From the NCBI RefSeq assembly GCF_011492945.1, contig NZ_CP045119.1, positions 3,596,001 to 3,660,000 on the forward strand: a stretch of DNA of 64,000 nucleotides. Direction: 5' to 3'. This document shows, in pieces, positions 2,770 to 49,008 of this stretch. Both the position numbers and the translations under genes were made by a program. This stretch comes from Rubrobacter tropicus (lineage in GTDB: Bacteria; Actinomycetota; Rubrobacteria; Rubrobacterales; Rubrobacteraceae). The notes under the pieces were generated by a model that had not been told where the DNA came from, ran no database searches, and worked only from the letters and a program-made list of their open reading frames with translations. Positions within the stretch are counted from its first letter, which is position 1, and every line of letters begins with the position of its first letter.

Positions 2770-4122
2770 GTGCAACAGACAAAGTTCCTTCTCGACGAGA
2801 AGCGCATCCCCGAGTCCTGGTACAACCTAGTGCCGGACCTGCCGTTCCAGTTGGAGCCGCCGCTCAACCCGGCGACCAGGGAGCCGGTGGGGCCCGAGGC
2901 CTTCGCGCCGATCTTCCCCGAGGAGATCATCCGCCAGGAAGTAACGGCCGAGCCCTACGTGCCGATCCCGGAAGAGGTGCGTGAGATCTACGCCCTCTGG
3001 CGCCCGACCCCCCTGTTCCGCGCCCGCCGCCTCGAAAAGCTCCTCGACACCCCCGCCCACATCTACTACAAGTACGAGGGTGTGAGCCCGTCCGGGAGCC
3101 ACAAGCCGAACACGGCCGTCCCCCAGGCCTTCTACAACAAGCAGGAGGGCGTCCGCCGCCTGACGACGGAGACGGGCGCGGGCCAGTGGGGCTCCTCCCT
3201 CGCCTTCGCCTGCGAGACTTTGGGCCTCGACTGCACCGTGTACATGGTAAAGGTCTCGTACGGCCAGAAGCCCTACCGCCGGATCATGATGGAGACCTAC
3301 GGCGCCGAGGTCCACGCGAGCCCGACGGACCTTACGCAGGCTGGCCGCGACATCCTCGAACAAGACCCCGACTCCCCGGGCTCCCTCGGCATCGCCATCT
3401 CGGAGGCCGTCGAGGACGCCGTAAAGAACGACGACGCGAAGTACTCCCTGGGCAGCGTGCTCAACCACGTCCTGCTCCACCAGACCGTGATCGGCCAGGA
3501 GGCCCTCGAACAGATGGAGCTGGCGGGCGAGTACCCCGACGTGGTGGTCGGCTGCGTCGGCGGCGGCTCGAACTTCGGCGGCATAGCCTTCCCCTTTATC
3601 CGGGAGAACCTCAAGGGCAACAAGGACACCCGCATCATCGGCGTCGAGCCCGCCTCGTGCCCGACGCTCACGAAGGGTCGCTACGTCTACGATTTCGGCG
3701 ACACCGCGGGCACTACCCCAATGATGAAGATGTACACCCTCGGCCACTCCTTCGTGCCTAGCGGCATCCACGCGGGCGGCCTCCGCTACCACGGCGACTC
3801 GCCCATCGTCTCAGCGCTCGTCCACGAGGGCCTCGTCGAGGCGCGGGCCTACGCCCAGAACCCTACCTTCGAGGCCGGCGTCGCCTTCGCCCGGGCGGAG
3901 GGCATCGTGCCGGCGCCCGAGGTAACGCACGCCATAAAGGCGACCATGGACCTGGCCCTCGAAGCCAGGGAGGCCGGCGAGGAGAAGACCATCCTCTTCA
4001 ACCTCTGCGGCCACGGCCACTTCGACTTCTCGGCCTACGAACAGTACCTGGCCGGCGGCCTCGTCAACCTGGAGCACTCGGACGAGGAGATAGAGAGGGC
4101 GGTCGCGGGGATACCGGGCTGA
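2770..4122 (+). CDS. trpB: TrpB2-type tryptophan synthase beta chain
   Basis: A 450-residue PLP enzyme of the TrpB2 branch, which condenses indole (or a related nucleophile) with serine. It starts at a GTG with GGAGG 8 nt upstream. The PLP lysine lies in SGSHKPNTA, and the cofactor phosphate loop is [11 protein letters not shown]. The N-terminal extension ahead of the barrel (about 80 residues, ending [18 protein letters not shown]) and the C-terminal NLCGHGHFD segment are typical of TrpB2 rather than the canonical ~400-residue TrpB1. No trpA or other trp gene is nearby, as is usual for TrpB2. It lies alone downstream of three palindromes that may control it. Confidence 0.9.
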
Positions 4123-4125
4123 GGG

Positions 4126-4221
4126 AGAGGCTTCAGGTTACAGGTCGCCTCCTTCGGAGGCTCTCAGGCTTCAGGGGCGCGAAGTCGGGAGCCGCCGACC
4201 ATCCCTGATGCCTGAAACCTC
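4126..4221. repeat. Interspersed intergenic repeat, TTCAGG type
   Basis: Begins GAGGCTTCAGGTTACAGG and ends in the complementary CCTGATGCCTGAAACCTC, so the element is an imperfect large inverted repeat. It contains an internal small hairpin (GCCTCC-TTC-GGAGGC). The same core, including the internal hairpin, recurs around 15.7 kb. It may act as a transcription stop after trpB2. Confidence 0.5.
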
Positions 4222-4222
4222 T

Positions 4223-4253
4223 TTTTAAACCCGAATTTACCCTCCCTAAACCA
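4223..4253 (+). promoter_or_regulatory. Candidate PHO box (tandem repeats) upstream of the 5'-nucleotidase
   Basis: Three consecutive 10-11-bp units, each ending in ACCC or AACC (TTTTAAACCC, GAATTTACCC, TCCCTAAACCA). A possible -10 (TATCCT, 4273-4278) follows 20 bp downstream. Tandem 11-bp direct repeats are the known form of PhoP sites in actinobacteria. A closer match precedes the other phosphatase gene at 6155, which supports phosphate control of both. Spacing here is a little less regular (10 then 11). Confidence 0.5.
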
Positions 4254-4284
4254 TACGGTTCGGGCACGCTGCTATCCTCCGGCG

Positions 4285-4503
4285 CGGATGGAATCTGCAC
4301 CCGTTTTCGGCGCAGAGAGAGGCCTTCCCGGAGACGGGCCGGGCCTGACCTACCCGGATCCGGAACACCCCGGCGCTCCGACCCCGGGCAGGCGCCTTGC
4401 GTAGGAGAACCGGCCCGGCGGCCGGAAGGGCCGCGAACCTCCGGAGGGACCCGCAGGCGCGGGTCCCTCTTTTTTTGGCCGGGCCGTTTTCGGGGAGACG
4501 GGC
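4285..4503 (+). ncRNA. Structured leader ending in a terminator, unidentified class
   Basis: From the likely transcription start (about 4285) to the 5'-nucleotidase start lie about 220 bases with no gene. They are very GC-rich with several self-complementary stretches (for example CCGGCCCGGCGGCCGG), and end in a strong hairpin plus T-run at 4444-4476, only 27 nt before the start codon. A terminator inside a leader suggests attenuation or a riboswitch, or else a separate small RNA. I compared it by eye with cobalamin and ydaO-type leaders and found no convincing match. Confidence 0.35.
4444..4476 (+). terminator. Rho-independent terminator within the 5'-nucleotidase leader
   Basis: GAGGGACCCGC and GCGGGTCCCTC form a perfect 11-bp stem around a 4-nt loop (AGGC), directly followed by seven T. 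This is the clearest textbook terminator in the window. Confidence 0.85.
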
Positions 4504-6147
4504 TTGAGGCGCGGGCGAAGGGCCGCGGCGGTCACGGCGCTTGTCCTCCTCGTTTCGTTGACGCCGCTCCTGATCTCCCTGACGGCCGAGGAATCTCGTC
4601 TGGAAGACCGCAAATCGGACGCGGTGCCGGCACGGGGGGAGCCCAGACCACGCGGCACAGCCGAGATACGGCTGCTCGGCGTCAACGATTTTCACGGATA
4701 CCTCGAACGTTCCGCGGAGAGCGCCGGCGCGGCGTACCTCGCGGCACAGTTGGACCGACACGAGCGCGGGAGCACCATCAGGGTTCACGCGGGCGACATG
4801 GTAAGCGCCTCACCGCTCGTCTCGGCCCGCTTCCACGACGAGCCGACCGTGCTCGCCATGAACGAGATGGGCTTCGACGTCGGCACTTTGGGCAACCACG
4901 AGTTCGACGAGGGCAAAGAAGAGATGCTCCGTCTCATAGACGGCGGTCAACGGGCAGGGAGCGAAGACACCTCCGATGCGAGATTCCCGGGGGCGGGGTT
5001 TCCGTACGTGGCCGCCAACACGCTCGACCGAGAGACGGGCAGGCCAGTCCTGCCACCGTTCACCGTGGTCCGGCGGGCCGGGGTGAAGGTCGGCTTCATA
5101 GGGGTGACGACGCTCGAGACGCCGGAGATCGTAATCCCCGCCGCGGCCGACGATTTCCGGTTCGCGGACATCTCGGAGACAGTAAACCGCCACGCCGCCG
5201 AACTCGAAGCCAGGGGCGTTCGGGCCATAGTGGTGCTCGCCCACTCCGGGGCGCTGGACACCGACCGCGGGGGGACGGCGGACGAGATCGTCACGGAGAC
5301 GAGGCAGATGAGCGGCAGCGTGGACGCCGTCTTCTCGGGCCACACCCACAACCGCCTGAACCTCGAAGTAGAGGACAGGCCCATCATCCAGGCTGAGGAG
5401 TACGGCAACGCCTTCGGGATCCTGGACCTCGAGGTCGCCCGCGCGAACGGCGAAGTCACAAGTTCGAAGGCCCGCGTGGTGACCACCAAGGACGACGGGG
5501 CAGGCCCGGACCCGGAGGTCGCCGCCCTGGTGAAGAGATACAGTAGACGGGTGGCGCCGCTCTCGGACCGCGTGGTCGGCAGGGCGTCCGAAGCCGTAAC
5601 CCCGACGCCGACGGCGGCCGGGGAGAGCCCTCTGGGCGACTTCGTTGCCGACGGCCAGCGGGACCTCGCCGGCACGGATTTCGCCCTCGTTCCGACGGGC
5701 GGGCTCAGGACCGGCATCGCCGCGGGCCCCGTGACTTACGGTGAGCTCTTCTCAGTGCAACCGTCGGGCCGGGACCTCGTAAAGATGGAGTTGACCGGGG
5801 AGCAAGTCCGGCGCGCGCTCGAGGAGCAGTACAGGCAGGACGGCAGGGACCACCGGCTCGCCGTCAGCGGCCTCCGCTACGAGTACGACCCGTCAGGGCC
5901 CCTCGGAGGGCGGGTCACGGCCCTGACCTTCCCGGACGGAGATCCCCTGCAGGCCGGCGGGAGGTACTCCGTCGCGGTAAACGGTTTCCTTGCTGCGGGC
6001 GGCGGAGATTTCGAGGTCTTCACGGAGGGCGAGAGCAGGCGGACCGTCGGCACGGACATCGGGGCCCTCGCGAGGCACGCGGGAGAACTGGCCCAACCCT
6101 TCGTCGCCCCGGACCCGAGACGTCCGCGCGTCAGGCTGGAGCCCTGA
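4504..6147 (+). CDS. Secreted 5'-nucleotidase/metallophosphatase (UshA/YfkN-like)
   Basis: A 547-residue exported phosphoesterase. The N-terminus (RRGRRAAAV followed by a Leu/Val run) is a signal peptide or anchor. The calcineurin-like metal-binding set is complete: NDFHG, GDM, GNHEFDEG, the HSG motif (LAHSGALD) and SGHTHN. The C-terminal half is the 5'-nucleotidase substrate domain (SPLGDFVADGQRDLAGTDFALVPTGG, with the aromatic-rich LRYEYDP region). It probably hydrolyses extracellular nucleotides or other phosphate esters to release phosphate. The start is a TTG; GGGGAGACGGGC upstream gives the ribosome-binding site. A PHO-box-like repeat, a structured leader and a terminator precede it. 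phoD follows 130 bp downstream. Confidence 0.85.
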   Translation: MRRGRRAAAVTALVLLVSLTPLLISLTAEESRLEDRKSDAVPARGEPRPRGTAEIRLLGVNDFHGYLERSAESAGAAYLAAQLDRHERGSTIRVHAGDMVSASPLVSARFHDEPTVLAMNEMGFDVGTLGNHEFDEGKEEMLRLIDGGQRAGSEDTSDARFPGAGFPYVAANTLDRETGRPVLPPFTVVRRAGVKVGFIGVTTLETPEIVIPAAADDFRFADISETVNRHAAELEARGVRAIVVLAHSGALDTDRGGTADEIVTETRQMSGSVDAVFSGHTHNRLNLEVEDRPIIQAEEYGNAFGILDLEVARANGEVTSSKARVVTTKDDGAGPDPEVAALVKRYSRRVAPLSDRVVGRASEAVTPTPTAAGESPLGDFVADGQRDLAGTDFALVPTGGLRTGIAAGPVTYGELFSVQPSGRDLVKMELTGEQVRRALEEQYRQDGRDHRLAVSGLRYEYDPSGPLGGRVTALTFPDGDPLQAGGRYSVAVNGFLAAGGGDFEVFTEGESRRTVGTDIGALARHAGELAQPFVAPDPRRPRVRLEP

Positions 6148-6154
6148 TCCCGTC

Positions 6155-6222
6155 AGTTTCACGTCCATTTAACCCGCGATTATCCCGCGTTTAACCCAAA
6201 AGTCGGACGGTGTCCCTAGAAT
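6155..6222 (+). promoter_or_regulatory. PHO box (four 11-bp direct repeats) and -10 element upstream of phoD
   Basis: Four consecutive 11-bp units run from 6155 to 6198: AGTTTCACGTC, CATTTAACCCG, CGATTATCCCG, CGTTTAACCCA. The first resembles and the rest vary on the actinobacterial PhoP repeat (GTTCACC-like). A TAGAAT -10 hexamer (6217-6222) lies 18 bp after the last unit, so the repeats occupy the -35 region, as at PhoP-activated promoters. Phosphate-starvation control is inferred. Confidence 0.65.
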
Positions 6223-6280
6223 CTTGGGGTCTGGATCTTTGCGCACGCCCCGGCCGTCCGGGGTGGAAAAGGAGCGTGTC

Positions 6281-8158
6281 ATGGGAGAGAGAAACGTGTT
6301 CGATGAGTTTCACGTGAACCGGTTGGACTTCCTGAAGTACTCGTTCGCGACGAGCGTGGCCGTCTGGGCCGGTTCGGTGGTGCCCGGTGGGATCGGGATC
6401 GACGAGGCCGAGGCGCAGGAGCTCTTCACGGTGCGCCGCGTCAACCCACAGCGTTTCCCGCAGAGCGTGGCCTCGGGGGATCCGAGGCCGAACGGCATCG
6501 TGCTCTGGACCCGCGTCGCCTGGAACCGGCCGGAGCCCTTGCGGGTGGCGTACCAGATCTCCCCCGAGGCCGACACGGGGTTCCAGCGGCCCGTCTTGCA
6601 AGGGGTGGTCGAGACCAACGCGGAACGGGACTTCACCGTCAAGATCCAGCTAAACCGTCCGCAGCTCAGGCCCTTCACGAAATACCGCTACCGCTTCATC
6701 TTCAACGGCCAGGCGACCCGCACGGGCCACTTCAAGACGCTCCCGGCGGCGGGGGCGGACGTCTCGAAGGTCCGTTTCGGCTACATCTCCTGCCAGGACT
6801 ACACAAACGGCTACTACAACGCCCTCTACCACCTCGCCCGCGAGGGCGAACTCGACTTCGTGGCGCACCTCGGCGACTACATGTACGAGACGGTCGCCTC
6901 CGACAGCTTCCAGGGGGGCGGTCCCGAGGAGCGGCAGTTCCGTTTCCCCGACGGCGGCGCGGAGTGCCTGACATACAAGGACTACCGCACGGCCTACAAA
7001 AAGTACAAGCAGGACAGGAACCTGCAGGCGCTGCACGAAAAATGCGCCTTCATCATGATCTGGGACGACCACGAGTTCGCCAACGACGCGTACCAGGTCT
7101 TCGCCCCGGATGAGGGCGGCACGGACGCGACGCCGGGCAACAACCCGTCCAGACGCCAGGCGGCGAGCCGGGCGTGGGCCCAGTTCAACCCGGTCGGCGT
7201 CCCGTTCGACGCGGCAAAGGGGCCGCTGGAGGAGATCCGGCTTTACCGCTCCTTCGAGTTCGGCAACCTGATGCAGCTCGTCATGACGGACCAGCGCCTC
7301 TACCGCGACGGCCCCCCCGCCGGCAACGAGACCCAGGACCGCTACGTCACCCCCGGCACGGGCGCCGAGGAGGCCCCAGGCCGCACGATGCTCGGCGACG
7401 GGACGGCGGGCGTGGGCAGCCTGCCCCGCCCCGACCAGCTCGGCTATTTCCTGGACAAGATGCTGAACTCCACGAGGACCTGGAAGATGTGGGGCAACGA
7501 GGTCACCTTCGGGCAGATCAAGGTGGCAAACAGCTTCCTGGGCCCCGGCAACGCGCTCCCGACCATCGACCCGTCCACGGCGCCCGAGGGCGTCTACATC
7601 ACGCTGGATCAGTGGGACGGCTACCAGGCTGAGCGGCGCGAGATCACGCGCGCCATCAGGGACGCGAACGCCGGCCAGGGCATAGACAACTTCGTCACCC
7701 TCACGGGCGACATCCACTCCTACATAGCGGGATACATCAAGGACGACTACGACAACCCCGTGAGCACCGGCGAGAACCGCCCCGTCGGCGTCGAGCTCGT
7801 CTGCGGCTCCGTGACCTCCTCGAACCTCTCGGAGATAGCATCCTTAGGCTTCGGCGCGGCCCCGGCCCCCGACGCAGGTCAGTTCACCGCGGCCGTCACC
7901 GCGAGCAACCCGCACATAAAGTACTTCAACTCGAACGACCACGGCTACAACGTCGTAGAGGTAACGCCAGCTTCTGTCGTCTGCACCATGAAGCGCGTGG
8001 TCCCAACGACGGCGACCCCCCAGAACCGCGGCAGCGGCATAAGAGAGCCCCAGCCCACGAACACCCGCAAGGAGACGCTCAGAAAGTTCAGGATAAACGC
8101 CGGAGAGGTGCTCCTCTTCGACGAAACGAACGGCGCCCCGGTGCCTCTGCCGGCGTAG
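6281..8158 (+). CDS. phoD: PhoD-type alkaline phosphatase
   Basis: A 625-residue secreted alkaline phosphatase/phosphodiesterase. The ATG at 6281 has AAAGGAG upstream. An in-frame TTG at 6224 is rejected because it sits 2 bp after the -10 box. An N-terminal segment (NRLDFLKYSFATSVAVWAGSVVPGG) resembles a Tat-type export signal with a degenerate motif. It is followed by a beta-sandwich domain (FPQSVASGDPRPNGIVLWTR) and the metallophosphatase core: ISCQDY, HLGDYMYE, WDDHEFANDAY and LTGDIHSY, which supply the Fe/Ca ligands. It is typical of PhoD in length and order. The PHO box upstream supports a phosphate-scavenging role next to the secreted 5'-nucleotidase. Confidence 0.9.
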   Translation: MGERNVFDEFHVNRLDFLKYSFATSVAVWAGSVVPGGIGIDEAEAQELFTVRRVNPQRFPQSVASGDPRPNGIVLWTRVAWNRPEPLRVAYQISPEADTGFQRPVLQGVVETNAERDFTVKIQLNRPQLRPFTKYRYRFIFNGQATRTGHFKTLPAAGADVSKVRFGYISCQDYTNGYYNALYHLAREGELDFVAHLGDYMYETVASDSFQGGGPEERQFRFPDGGAECLTYKDYRTAYKKYKQDRNLQALHEKCAFIMIWDDHEFANDAYQVFAPDEGGTDATPGNNPSRRQAASRAWAQFNPVGVPFDAAKGPLEEIRLYRSFEFGNLMQLVMTDQRLYRDGPPAGNETQDRYVTPGTGAEEAPGRTMLGDGTAGVGSLPRPDQLGYFLDKMLNSTRTWKMWGNEVTFGQIKVANSFLGPGNALPTIDPSTAPEGVYITLDQWDGYQAERREITRAIRDANAGQGIDNFVTLTGDIHSYIAGYIKDDYDNPVSTGENRPVGVELVCGSVTSSNLSEIASLGFGAAPAPDAGQFTAAVTASNPHIKYFNSNDHGYNVVEVTPASVVCTMKRVVPTTATPQNRGSGIREPQPTNTRKETLRKFRINAGEVLLFDETNGAPVPLPA

Positions 8159-13690: not shown

Positions 13691-14116
13691 ATGCGCAAGT
13701 TTGTTGTTGCCCTGTTCTCGTGCGCCGTGCTTTCGGCGGTGATCGTCGCGAACTCGCCTTCCGAGGCGTCGGCGCAGACGCTCTCCGGCGAGGCGGTCGT
13801 CGCCGAGGCGCAGTCCTACATCGGCACGCCCTACGGAGCCGGCGGCCTCGACTGCTCGGGCTTTACCTCGGCCGTCTACGCCAACCTAGGCGTCTCGCTT
13901 CCGGACGACCCGGTCGCCCAGTACGGCTACGGCGTGCCGTCGGAAGGCGCCGCCGGCGACCTCGTCTTCTTCGACGAGGCCGGCTACGGCATCTCGCACG
14001 TCGGAATAGCCACGGGCTACGGCACCGTCATCCACGCCTCGACCTACTACGGGACGATAACCGAGACCCCGATCTCGCAGGTTCCCGGCTACGTGGGCGC
14101 TGTGGATCCGGCGTAG
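13691..14116 (+). CDS. Secreted NlpC/P60 peptidoglycan endopeptidase
   Basis: A 141-residue exported cysteine peptidase. The signal peptide (MRKFVVALFSCAVLSAVIVA ending near ASAQT) leads straight into a single NlpC/P60 domain. The domain has the catalytic Cys in GLDCSGFTSAVY, the His in ISHVGIATGYG and the third residue at VIHAS. There is no cell-wall binding domain. The ATG at 13691 has GGAGGGGG 9 nt upstream; an in-frame start at 13658 lacks one. It likely cleaves stem peptides during wall turnover. A strong hairpin follows. Confidence 0.9.
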   Translation: MRKFVVALFSCAVLSAVIVANSPSEASAQTLSGEAVVAEAQSYIGTPYGAGGLDCSGFTSAVYANLGVSLPDDPVAQYGYGVPSEGAAGDLVFFDEAGYGISHVGIATGYGTVIHASTYYGTITETPISQVPGYVGAVDPA

Positions 14117-14120
14117 GAAA

Positions 14121-14282
14121 GGCTTCAGGTTACAGGCTTCAGCTTTTTGGTTGATCGCCGATAGCTTCTCGAATAGGGGGCCGGGACAAAAGCCCCGGCC
14201 CCCTATTCGCTGTTTGGCTCACGCCCGGAAGCCAAAAGCTCGCCGCCAACGTCGAGATCCTGATGCCCGTAACCTGAAGCCT
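14121..14282. repeat. TTCAGG-type repeat arms flanking the terminator
   Basis: GGCTTCAGGTTACAGGCTTCAGC at 14121-14143 has its counterpart CCCGTAACCTGAAGCC at 14265-14281, so the two arms enclose the 16-bp hairpin at 14170-14209. The arms match the elements near 4.1 and 15.7 kb. The distal arm runs into the last codons of the MFS gene. Confidence 0.5.
14170..14209. terminator. Strong bidirectional terminator hairpin
   Basis: CGAATAGGGGGCCGGG and CCCGGCCCCCTATTCG form a perfect 16-bp stem with an 8-nt loop, between the convergent NlpC/P60 and MFS genes. There is no long T-run on either side, but stem strength and position support a two-way stop. Confidence 0.65.
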
Positions 14283-15669: not shown

Positions 15670-15760
15670 ACCCGAGAGGCTACAGGCATCAGGTTGCGGG
15701 TCGCCTCCTTCGGAGGCTTTCAGGTTCTCAGGTTTTCAGGGGTGGAGGGCCGGGGCCTGC
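15670..15760. repeat. TTCAGG-type repeat copy
   Basis: Contains GGCTACAGGCATCAGGTTGC, then the small hairpin GCCTCC-TTC-GGAGGC and TTTCAGG units. It is nearly the same as the element at 4126-4221, including the internal hairpin. It lies between merR and the MFS gene. Confidence 0.5.
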
Positions 15761-45867: not shown

Positions 45868-45980
45868 CGAAAGGCGCGAAGCGCCGTGCTGAGAGCGAGG
45901 ACTGCGGAGCAGGCCGAAGCGTGCTGAGAGCGGAGCCCCCAGGGCGGAGCGTGCTGAGAGCCCCCGAAGGGGGCGTGCTA
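45868..45980. repeat. CTGA-type repeat between cydB and cydD
   Basis: GCGAAGCGCCGTGCTGAGAGCG, GCCGAAGCGTGCTGAGAGCGG and GCGTGCTGAGAGC repeat as about three 28-40-bp units, ending CCCCCGAAGGGGG (hairpin). It belongs to the same family as the elements near 29 kb. It splits the cydAB-cydDC series. Confidence 0.5.
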
Positions 45981-48894: not shown

Positions 48895-49008
48895 TTTCAG
48901 GCAACAGGCTTCAGGGGCGACGTTCGGGGTCCGGTGGCGACGACCGCCCCTGAAGCCTGAGAGCGAGGGCCGAAGGCCCGAAGCGCCCTGCAGCCTGACA
49001 CCTCTCAA
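48895..49008. repeat. TTCAGG/CTGA mixed repeat element
   Basis: TTCAGGCAACAGGCTTCAGGGGC is mirrored at the other end by CCCCTGAAGCCTGAGAGCG, then GGGCCGAAGGCCCGAAGCGCCC and a final CCTGACACCTC. It combines the two sub-types of the interspersed family, and its outer parts can pair. Confidence 0.5.

Follow-up and report, generated by a model that had tools for sequence, protein, structure and literature searches.

PHO boxes, the sites that mark genes of the Pho regulon, have been described as 11-nt direct repeats (PMC4415409). Leader attenuation that involves small ORFs has been described in mycobacteria, as for ilvB1 of Mycobacterium tuberculosis, whose 166-nt leader yields a terminated RNA of ~120 nt (PMC13236596). 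PMC12810186 and PMC4633059 also deal with regulation by leaders that carry small ORFs or leaderless ORFs. Among the titles and abstract openings listed from the open-licence PMC literature, we found neither a Pho-regulated leader terminator nor an account of Rubrobacter leaders.

Here we describe a 5'-nucleotidase gene that combines elements of both kinds of system within a 64 kb stretch of DNA from Rubrobacter tropicus (the whole stretch is called the window below). Sequence comparison suggests, with a probability that we put at about 0.58, that a Pho-type transcript of this gene is attenuated by a read-through terminator, perhaps in connection with translation of a small ORF. In some bacteria of one family, premature termination of the nucleotidase mRNA would thus probably keep expression of the gene low.

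A predicted Pho-type promoter upstream of a 5'-nucleotidase

The gene encodes a 547-aa protein that matches PF02872 (1.2e-37) and PF00149 and starts with TTG (4504–6147, on the + strand, as are the upstream gene, promoter elements, small ORF, Shine-Dalgarno-like stretches and terminator described below). Directly before the start codon, inspection of the sequence by eye identifies the Shine-Dalgarno-like stretch GGGGAGACGGGC (4492–4503). The upstream gene encodes a TrpB-like enzyme (2770–4122; NF009057, TIGR01415; tblastn), and tblastn places a TrpB-like neighbour upstream of the nucleotidase in the related genomes G002, G011 and G013 as well. In G016 this gene lies upstream of the promoter in pieces, and it was not found in the ~1.5 kb flanks of G028 and G038. 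In G022 and G023, a TrpB-like gene sits downstream of nucleotidases of a second clade. The fragmentation in G016 (locus L174) reflects either an assembly error or a pseudogene.

The downstream neighbour of the nucleotidase is PhoD, and a Pho-type cluster lies just upstream of the window, in a stretch that ends inside it (L161, G000:C1:3580001-3600000). The products of this cluster are PhoX, GDPD, two phytase-like proteins, nuclease-type proteins and a second 5'-nucleotidase. Five PHO-box-like sites occur there, one each ahead of PhoX, the nucleotidase, one of the phytase-like genes and two of the nuclease-type genes.

A PHO box with 11-nt-spaced repeats (TTTTAAAC / TTTACC / TAAACC) was identified at 4223–4255 by both a matrix and an IUPAC pattern. 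The matrix, whose training set comprised seven nucleotidase promoters from relatives and excluded the window and G002, scores 28.2 at this site, which is the only match of at least 9 in the 64 kb window; at a threshold of 11, a 400 kb sample contains seven matches, five of them within L161. The IUPAC pattern was drawn up by eye from nucleotidase promoters, which biases it toward such genes, and matches at 32 places spread over 21 of the 39 related genomes (reversed control, 0). A -10-like hexamer, TATCCT (4273–4278), follows at an offset from the PHO box that is identical in the window, G002, G013, G011, G028 and G038, where the hexamer reads TATCCT, TAGCCT or TATTCT. A generic sigma-70 scan of 3000–6500 found no promoter, so that the promoter assignment is a comparative one. 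The arrangement of a PHO box of 11-nt repeats upstream of a promoter agrees with the description of the Pho regulon in PMC4415409. PhoP/PhoB would bind at the PHO box, and transcription is predicted to start near 4284–4287.

A separate observation concerns the intergenic DNA directly upstream of the PHO box (4123–4220), which is a ~98-bp element with imperfect inverted repeats. Partial matches occur in the window at 15684–15732, 48905–49006, 14116–14136 and 45954–45975, and the 400 kb sample contains one full-length match (L163:11720-11818, 78% over 99). By eye, similar word-like palindromes are present upstream of nucleotidases in L044 and L050.

An intrinsic terminator and its recurrence in one nucleotidase clade

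The initial annotation had pointed to a strong terminator, with an 11-bp stem and seven T, 27 nt before the start codon, and reading the sequence bears this out. The stem is perfect, with a 5' arm GAGGGACCCGC (4444–4454), the loop AGGC and a 3' arm GCGGGTCCCTC (4459–4469), and it is followed by a T7 tract (4470–4476) and 27 nt that lead to the TTG at 4504; the hairpin has a predicted energy of -24.0 kcal/mol. A strict scan (stem of at least 7, at least 5 T of 8) also recovered the whole element (4444–4476), and no other site in the 64 kb window passed it on either strand. By sequence, the leader ahead of the gene thus holds the intrinsic terminator that is expected of a classical transcription attenuator. 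Its rarity alone proves nothing, since three first-order random sequences of 64 kb gave 0, 3 and 3 strict sites on one strand. Loose criteria likewise carry little information: applied to 3.5 kb in a simple scan, they yield 2 terminator-like sites compared to 1.7 in shuffles. In 400 kb sampled from the same genome, 32 sites on both strands pass the strict criteria, and none of them has 7 T of 8.

On present comparisons, what raises the window terminator above chance is that three other genera also have one ahead of a nucleotidase of this clade. Terminator-like sites lie within 330 nt of 5 of 28 readable PHO-box sites: L172 (G011), L173 (G013), L184 (the window), L187 (G028) and L192, a weaker 8-bp example that is the second G013 site and precedes another gene. 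The 28 derive from the 32 pattern matches, which make up 30 loci without G030:C280 and G034:C203, 29 once the identical G026/G027 sites are counted once, and 28 after removal of L174 (G016), which ends 136 nt after the match and whose promoter presumably belongs to the G016 nucleotidase located on another contig. The four strong terminators have stems of 9–12 bp and 4-nt loops, begin 165–209 nt past the PHO box and lie 34–52 nt, counted from the hairpin, before the start codon; in folds of all four leaders (window, G011, G013, G028) the inner pairs have a probability of 1.0. All four precede 5'-nucleotidases of one clade. Of the 6 readable sites that belong to this clade, 4 have a terminator-like site within 330 nt, versus 1 of 22 others (one-sided Fisher about 0.003). 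The comparison was picked after the data were seen, and some of the 22 are perhaps not Pho promoters (L177 and L178 resemble coding DNA).

A tree of 18 nucleotidases places the window, G011, G013, G028, G002, G038 and G016 in a seven-member clade (95/93) beside a clade of eight. Second-clade nucleotidases that have a PHO-box match (G004, G005 and the second copy of G013) have short leaders with no terminator, and inspection by eye showed none in the leader that precedes the window genome's second nucleotidase. Within the seven-member clade, G002 and G038 lack the terminator yet keep the promoter, which indicates that the terminator is dispensable; the G038 leader is short, and that of G002 carries a 40-codon ORF whose stop codon is separated by six nt from the GTG of the nucleotidase. 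The terminator maps to the tree with four changes, and 500 of 500 shuffled labelings require as few. With the clade order weakly defined and the terminator label unclustered, a single origin with losses and several gains fit equally. A different hairpin was noted in G038 (L042), within 93 nt before the chosen TTG: a 13-bp stem (GGGTTTCCGGGGC / GCCCCGGAAACCC) that has no T tract and lies right before GGGGAGGAG. This is perhaps a translational rather than a transcriptional block, in a gene with an uncertain start codon.

The position of the terminator also bears on the possibility that it ends transcripts from upstream, with the nucleotidase promoter overlapping or following the hairpin. The TrpB-like gene does end about 320 nt upstream on the same strand, and the sigma-70 scan does not detect the PHO-box promoter either. 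We nevertheless regard such an arrangement as very improbable, as the PHO-box promoter sits between the upstream gene and the terminator, the gap from hairpin to start codon measures just 34–52 nt in four genomes, and the window has no promoter-like site there. The initial annotation held that expression must pass the terminator. This is probably right: the 27 nt that follow leave hardly any room for a promoter, the promoter evidence that we have (PHO box and -10-like hexamer) is upstream, and three other genera share the arrangement.

A variable leader with a small ORF

The DNA between promoter and terminator had been characterized as structured and non-coding. The terminator is indeed structured, but the leader body folds like shuffled sequence and 4288–4404 is an open reading frame. 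Relative to dinucleotide shuffles, folding z is -0.33 for the window (the 165 nt before the terminator), 1.04 for G002, 0.14 for G013, 0.12 for G011 and -0.5 for G028; the value of -3.2 obtained for 4285–4477 loses its excess once the terminator is excluded. Absence of conserved structure had been named in the initial annotation as grounds for abandoning a regulatory reading. Such absence describes the leader body and does not extend to the terminator.

The putative ORF (MESAPVFGAERGLPGDGPGLTYPDPEHPGAPTPGRRLA) has 38 codons, starts with ATG at 4288, would be leaderless or nearly so given the predicted transcription start, and ends 39 nt before the terminator stem; its counterpart is the 40-codon ORF of G002. 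It may be translated. The peptide has no Pfam or NCBIfam match at E <= 0.001, and a search over 39 genomes found one clear relative, that of G002 (3.4e-10). Further matches at E 0.012–1, which bring the tally to 37 of 39 genomes, were taken as chance. Over the first 18 codons, the window and G002 differ by two synonymous and two amino-acid changes, a count from two sequences only.

Each of the four terminator leaders contains a small ORF, of 19–43 codons, that ends 12–44 nt before the hairpin. In the other genera the ORF starts later in the leader than in the window: after a Shine-Dalgarno-like stretch at TTGAGC in G013 (30 codons) and G028 (43 codons), and at ATGAGC in G011 (19 codons); the cut-off G016 sequence has TTGAGA. 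When the leaders are compared by eye, GAGAGAGG (4315–4322) in the window takes the place that is occupied in G013, G028 and G016 by the Shine-Dalgarno-like GAGGGAGG/GAGGAGG preceding their small ORFs; in the window, no ATG, GTG or TTG follows it closely. The peptides are dissimilar between genera, and by eye neither conserved sensor codons nor a shared codon run is evident. The start region of the G013 ORF is identical in 23 of 24 bases to a start site in G038, which, as read by eye, belongs to a biotin-carboxylase-like gene.

Leader DNA is similarly variable. G002 is the only close relative of the window leader, at 84% over 166 columns (4209 to 4372) that cover the promoter and about 85 nt at the start of the leader. 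Three queries, the first part of the window leader and the leaders of G028 and G013, were run against 39 genomes and found only G002 clearly, as did the complete window leader when run against nine genomes of its genus. Ten of the weaker matches were checked and rejected; all lie over open frames of at least 247 codons, which in GC-rich DNA fits chance. Two of at least 80 nucleotidase loci of named genomes were examined, and neither has a leader of the window type; the nearest named-genome match among the matches listed is a Rubrobacter MAG (L059, 51%). An alignment of six leaders has no common core besides the terminator, and for covariation the two sequences that align well, the window and G002, are too few.

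These comparisons have a bearing on whether the unit at about 4285–4476 could be a gene in itself, a Pho-induced small RNA or small protein with its own terminator, from which the nucleotidase is expressed by accidental read-through. The combination of promoter, small ORF and terminator in four genera is compatible with such a gene, as is the similarity of window and G002 over the promoter and the start of the leader. The unit was found before this nucleotidase only, though, the leader and ORF-peptide searches returned one clear relative, and the leader is unconserved between genera, unlike most functional RNAs or proteins. We consider an independent gene unlikely.

A second possibility is a classical regulated attenuator. 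This could be a riboswitch that binds a ligand, or a leader-peptide system in which terminator and antiterminator exclude each other. In its favor, the terminator immediately precedes the gene and the leader holds a small ORF, as is reported for ilvB1 and whiB7 of M. tuberculosis (PMC13236596). The remaining evidence points the other way and makes this reading decidedly doubtful. An Rfam search of the window and six related loci produced nothing that reached a gathering score, and at a loose threshold six sub-threshold matches (best E 1.4; best inside the leader, E 1.8). A search for sequence upstream of the terminator 5' arm that could pair with it found no partner better than chance in four leaders; among 100 shuffles, 98 matched or beat the pairing in the window, 87 in G013, 96 in G011 and 25 in G028. 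To this may be added the five leader bodies that fold like shuffles and the small ORFs that, by eye, share no run of one amino acid. The folding and antiterminator tests apply an energy model to single sequences, and pseudoknots and protein binding are outside their reach. Repeated 10-mers within the leader (4301/4484 and 4330/4494) were given no weight, since 83 of 1000 random sequences equal them.

Among the regulatory classes offered by the initial annotation, the riboswitch is disfavored by the lack of an Rfam family, excess folding, a competing antiterminator and a cross-genus leader core. An attenuator remains likely on the strength of the upstream promoter and the recurrence in three other genera, albeit one in which an antiterminator of the classical type was not found. 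A separate small RNA that ends near 4476 would be compatible with these observations.

A proposed second brake and its relation to described systems

The reading that we favor, attenuation of a Pho-type transcript by a read-through terminator, would operate as follows. A phosphate-starvation promoter of the PhoP/PhoB type would give rise to a transcript from near 4285 that carries the small ORF in its first part. Many polymerases would halt at 4444–4476, a degree of termination that we infer, so that a short RNA some 190 nt long is released, while transcripts that read through would supply the 5'-nucleotidase. The terminator would thereby act as a second brake on a gene that is already under Pho-type control.

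Read-through may be set by the position of a ribosome on the small ORF, by a protein factor or by plain leakiness. Pairing of the terminator arm is no better than in shuffles, and a mechanism for regulated read-through is therefore missing. Coupling to the ribosome is a fair guess, based on the small ORF that ends 12–44 nt before the hairpin in four leaders and on the mycobacterial precedents of leader attenuation. More tentatively, and at a likelihood that we consider low, the gene may be secured by two locks, with PhoP-type activation followed by release from an intrinsic terminator without base-paired antitermination, for example through a ribosome on a fast-changing and sometimes leaderless small ORF. 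Two such locks would restrict the enzyme to conditions in which phosphate scarcity coincides with a second condition.

If attenuation by read-through is correct, phosphate scavenging in this family is also limited after initiation, in a gene class that is usually described as promoter-controlled. A terminator that recurs while the leader changes, with no visible antiterminator, would provide a clean natural case for what sets read-through at a lone terminator. G002, which has the promoter and small ORF without the terminator, is a ready-made comparison.

The locus resembles three described systems in part. With Pho regulon genes, including 5'-nucleotidases (UshA), it shares 11-nt direct repeats before a 5'-nucleotidase; the control described in PMC4415409 is regulator binding to DNA, and a leader terminator does not figure in that account. 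With the mycobacterial leaderless polycysteine short ORFs (cysteine attenuators; Canestrari 2020) it shares the placement of a leaderless small ORF ahead of a gene under regulation, whereas the window ORF has no cysteine run and the polycysteine ORFs are, according to PMC13236596, translation attenuators. Closest in layout are the actinobacterial leader-peptide attenuators of ilvB1NC and whiB7, which, as outlined in PMC13236596, likewise have a long leader that contains a small ORF and, ahead of the structural gene, an intrinsic terminator. Compared to these the window leader has no antiterminator that we could find and no run of sensor codons, and its attenuator-like working combined with the negative antiterminator search leads us not to place it in the classical class. 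The systems also differ in what they control: ilvB1NC and whiB7 serve amino-acid synthesis or drug tolerance, whereas the window leader joins a Pho-type promoter to a scavenging enzyme.
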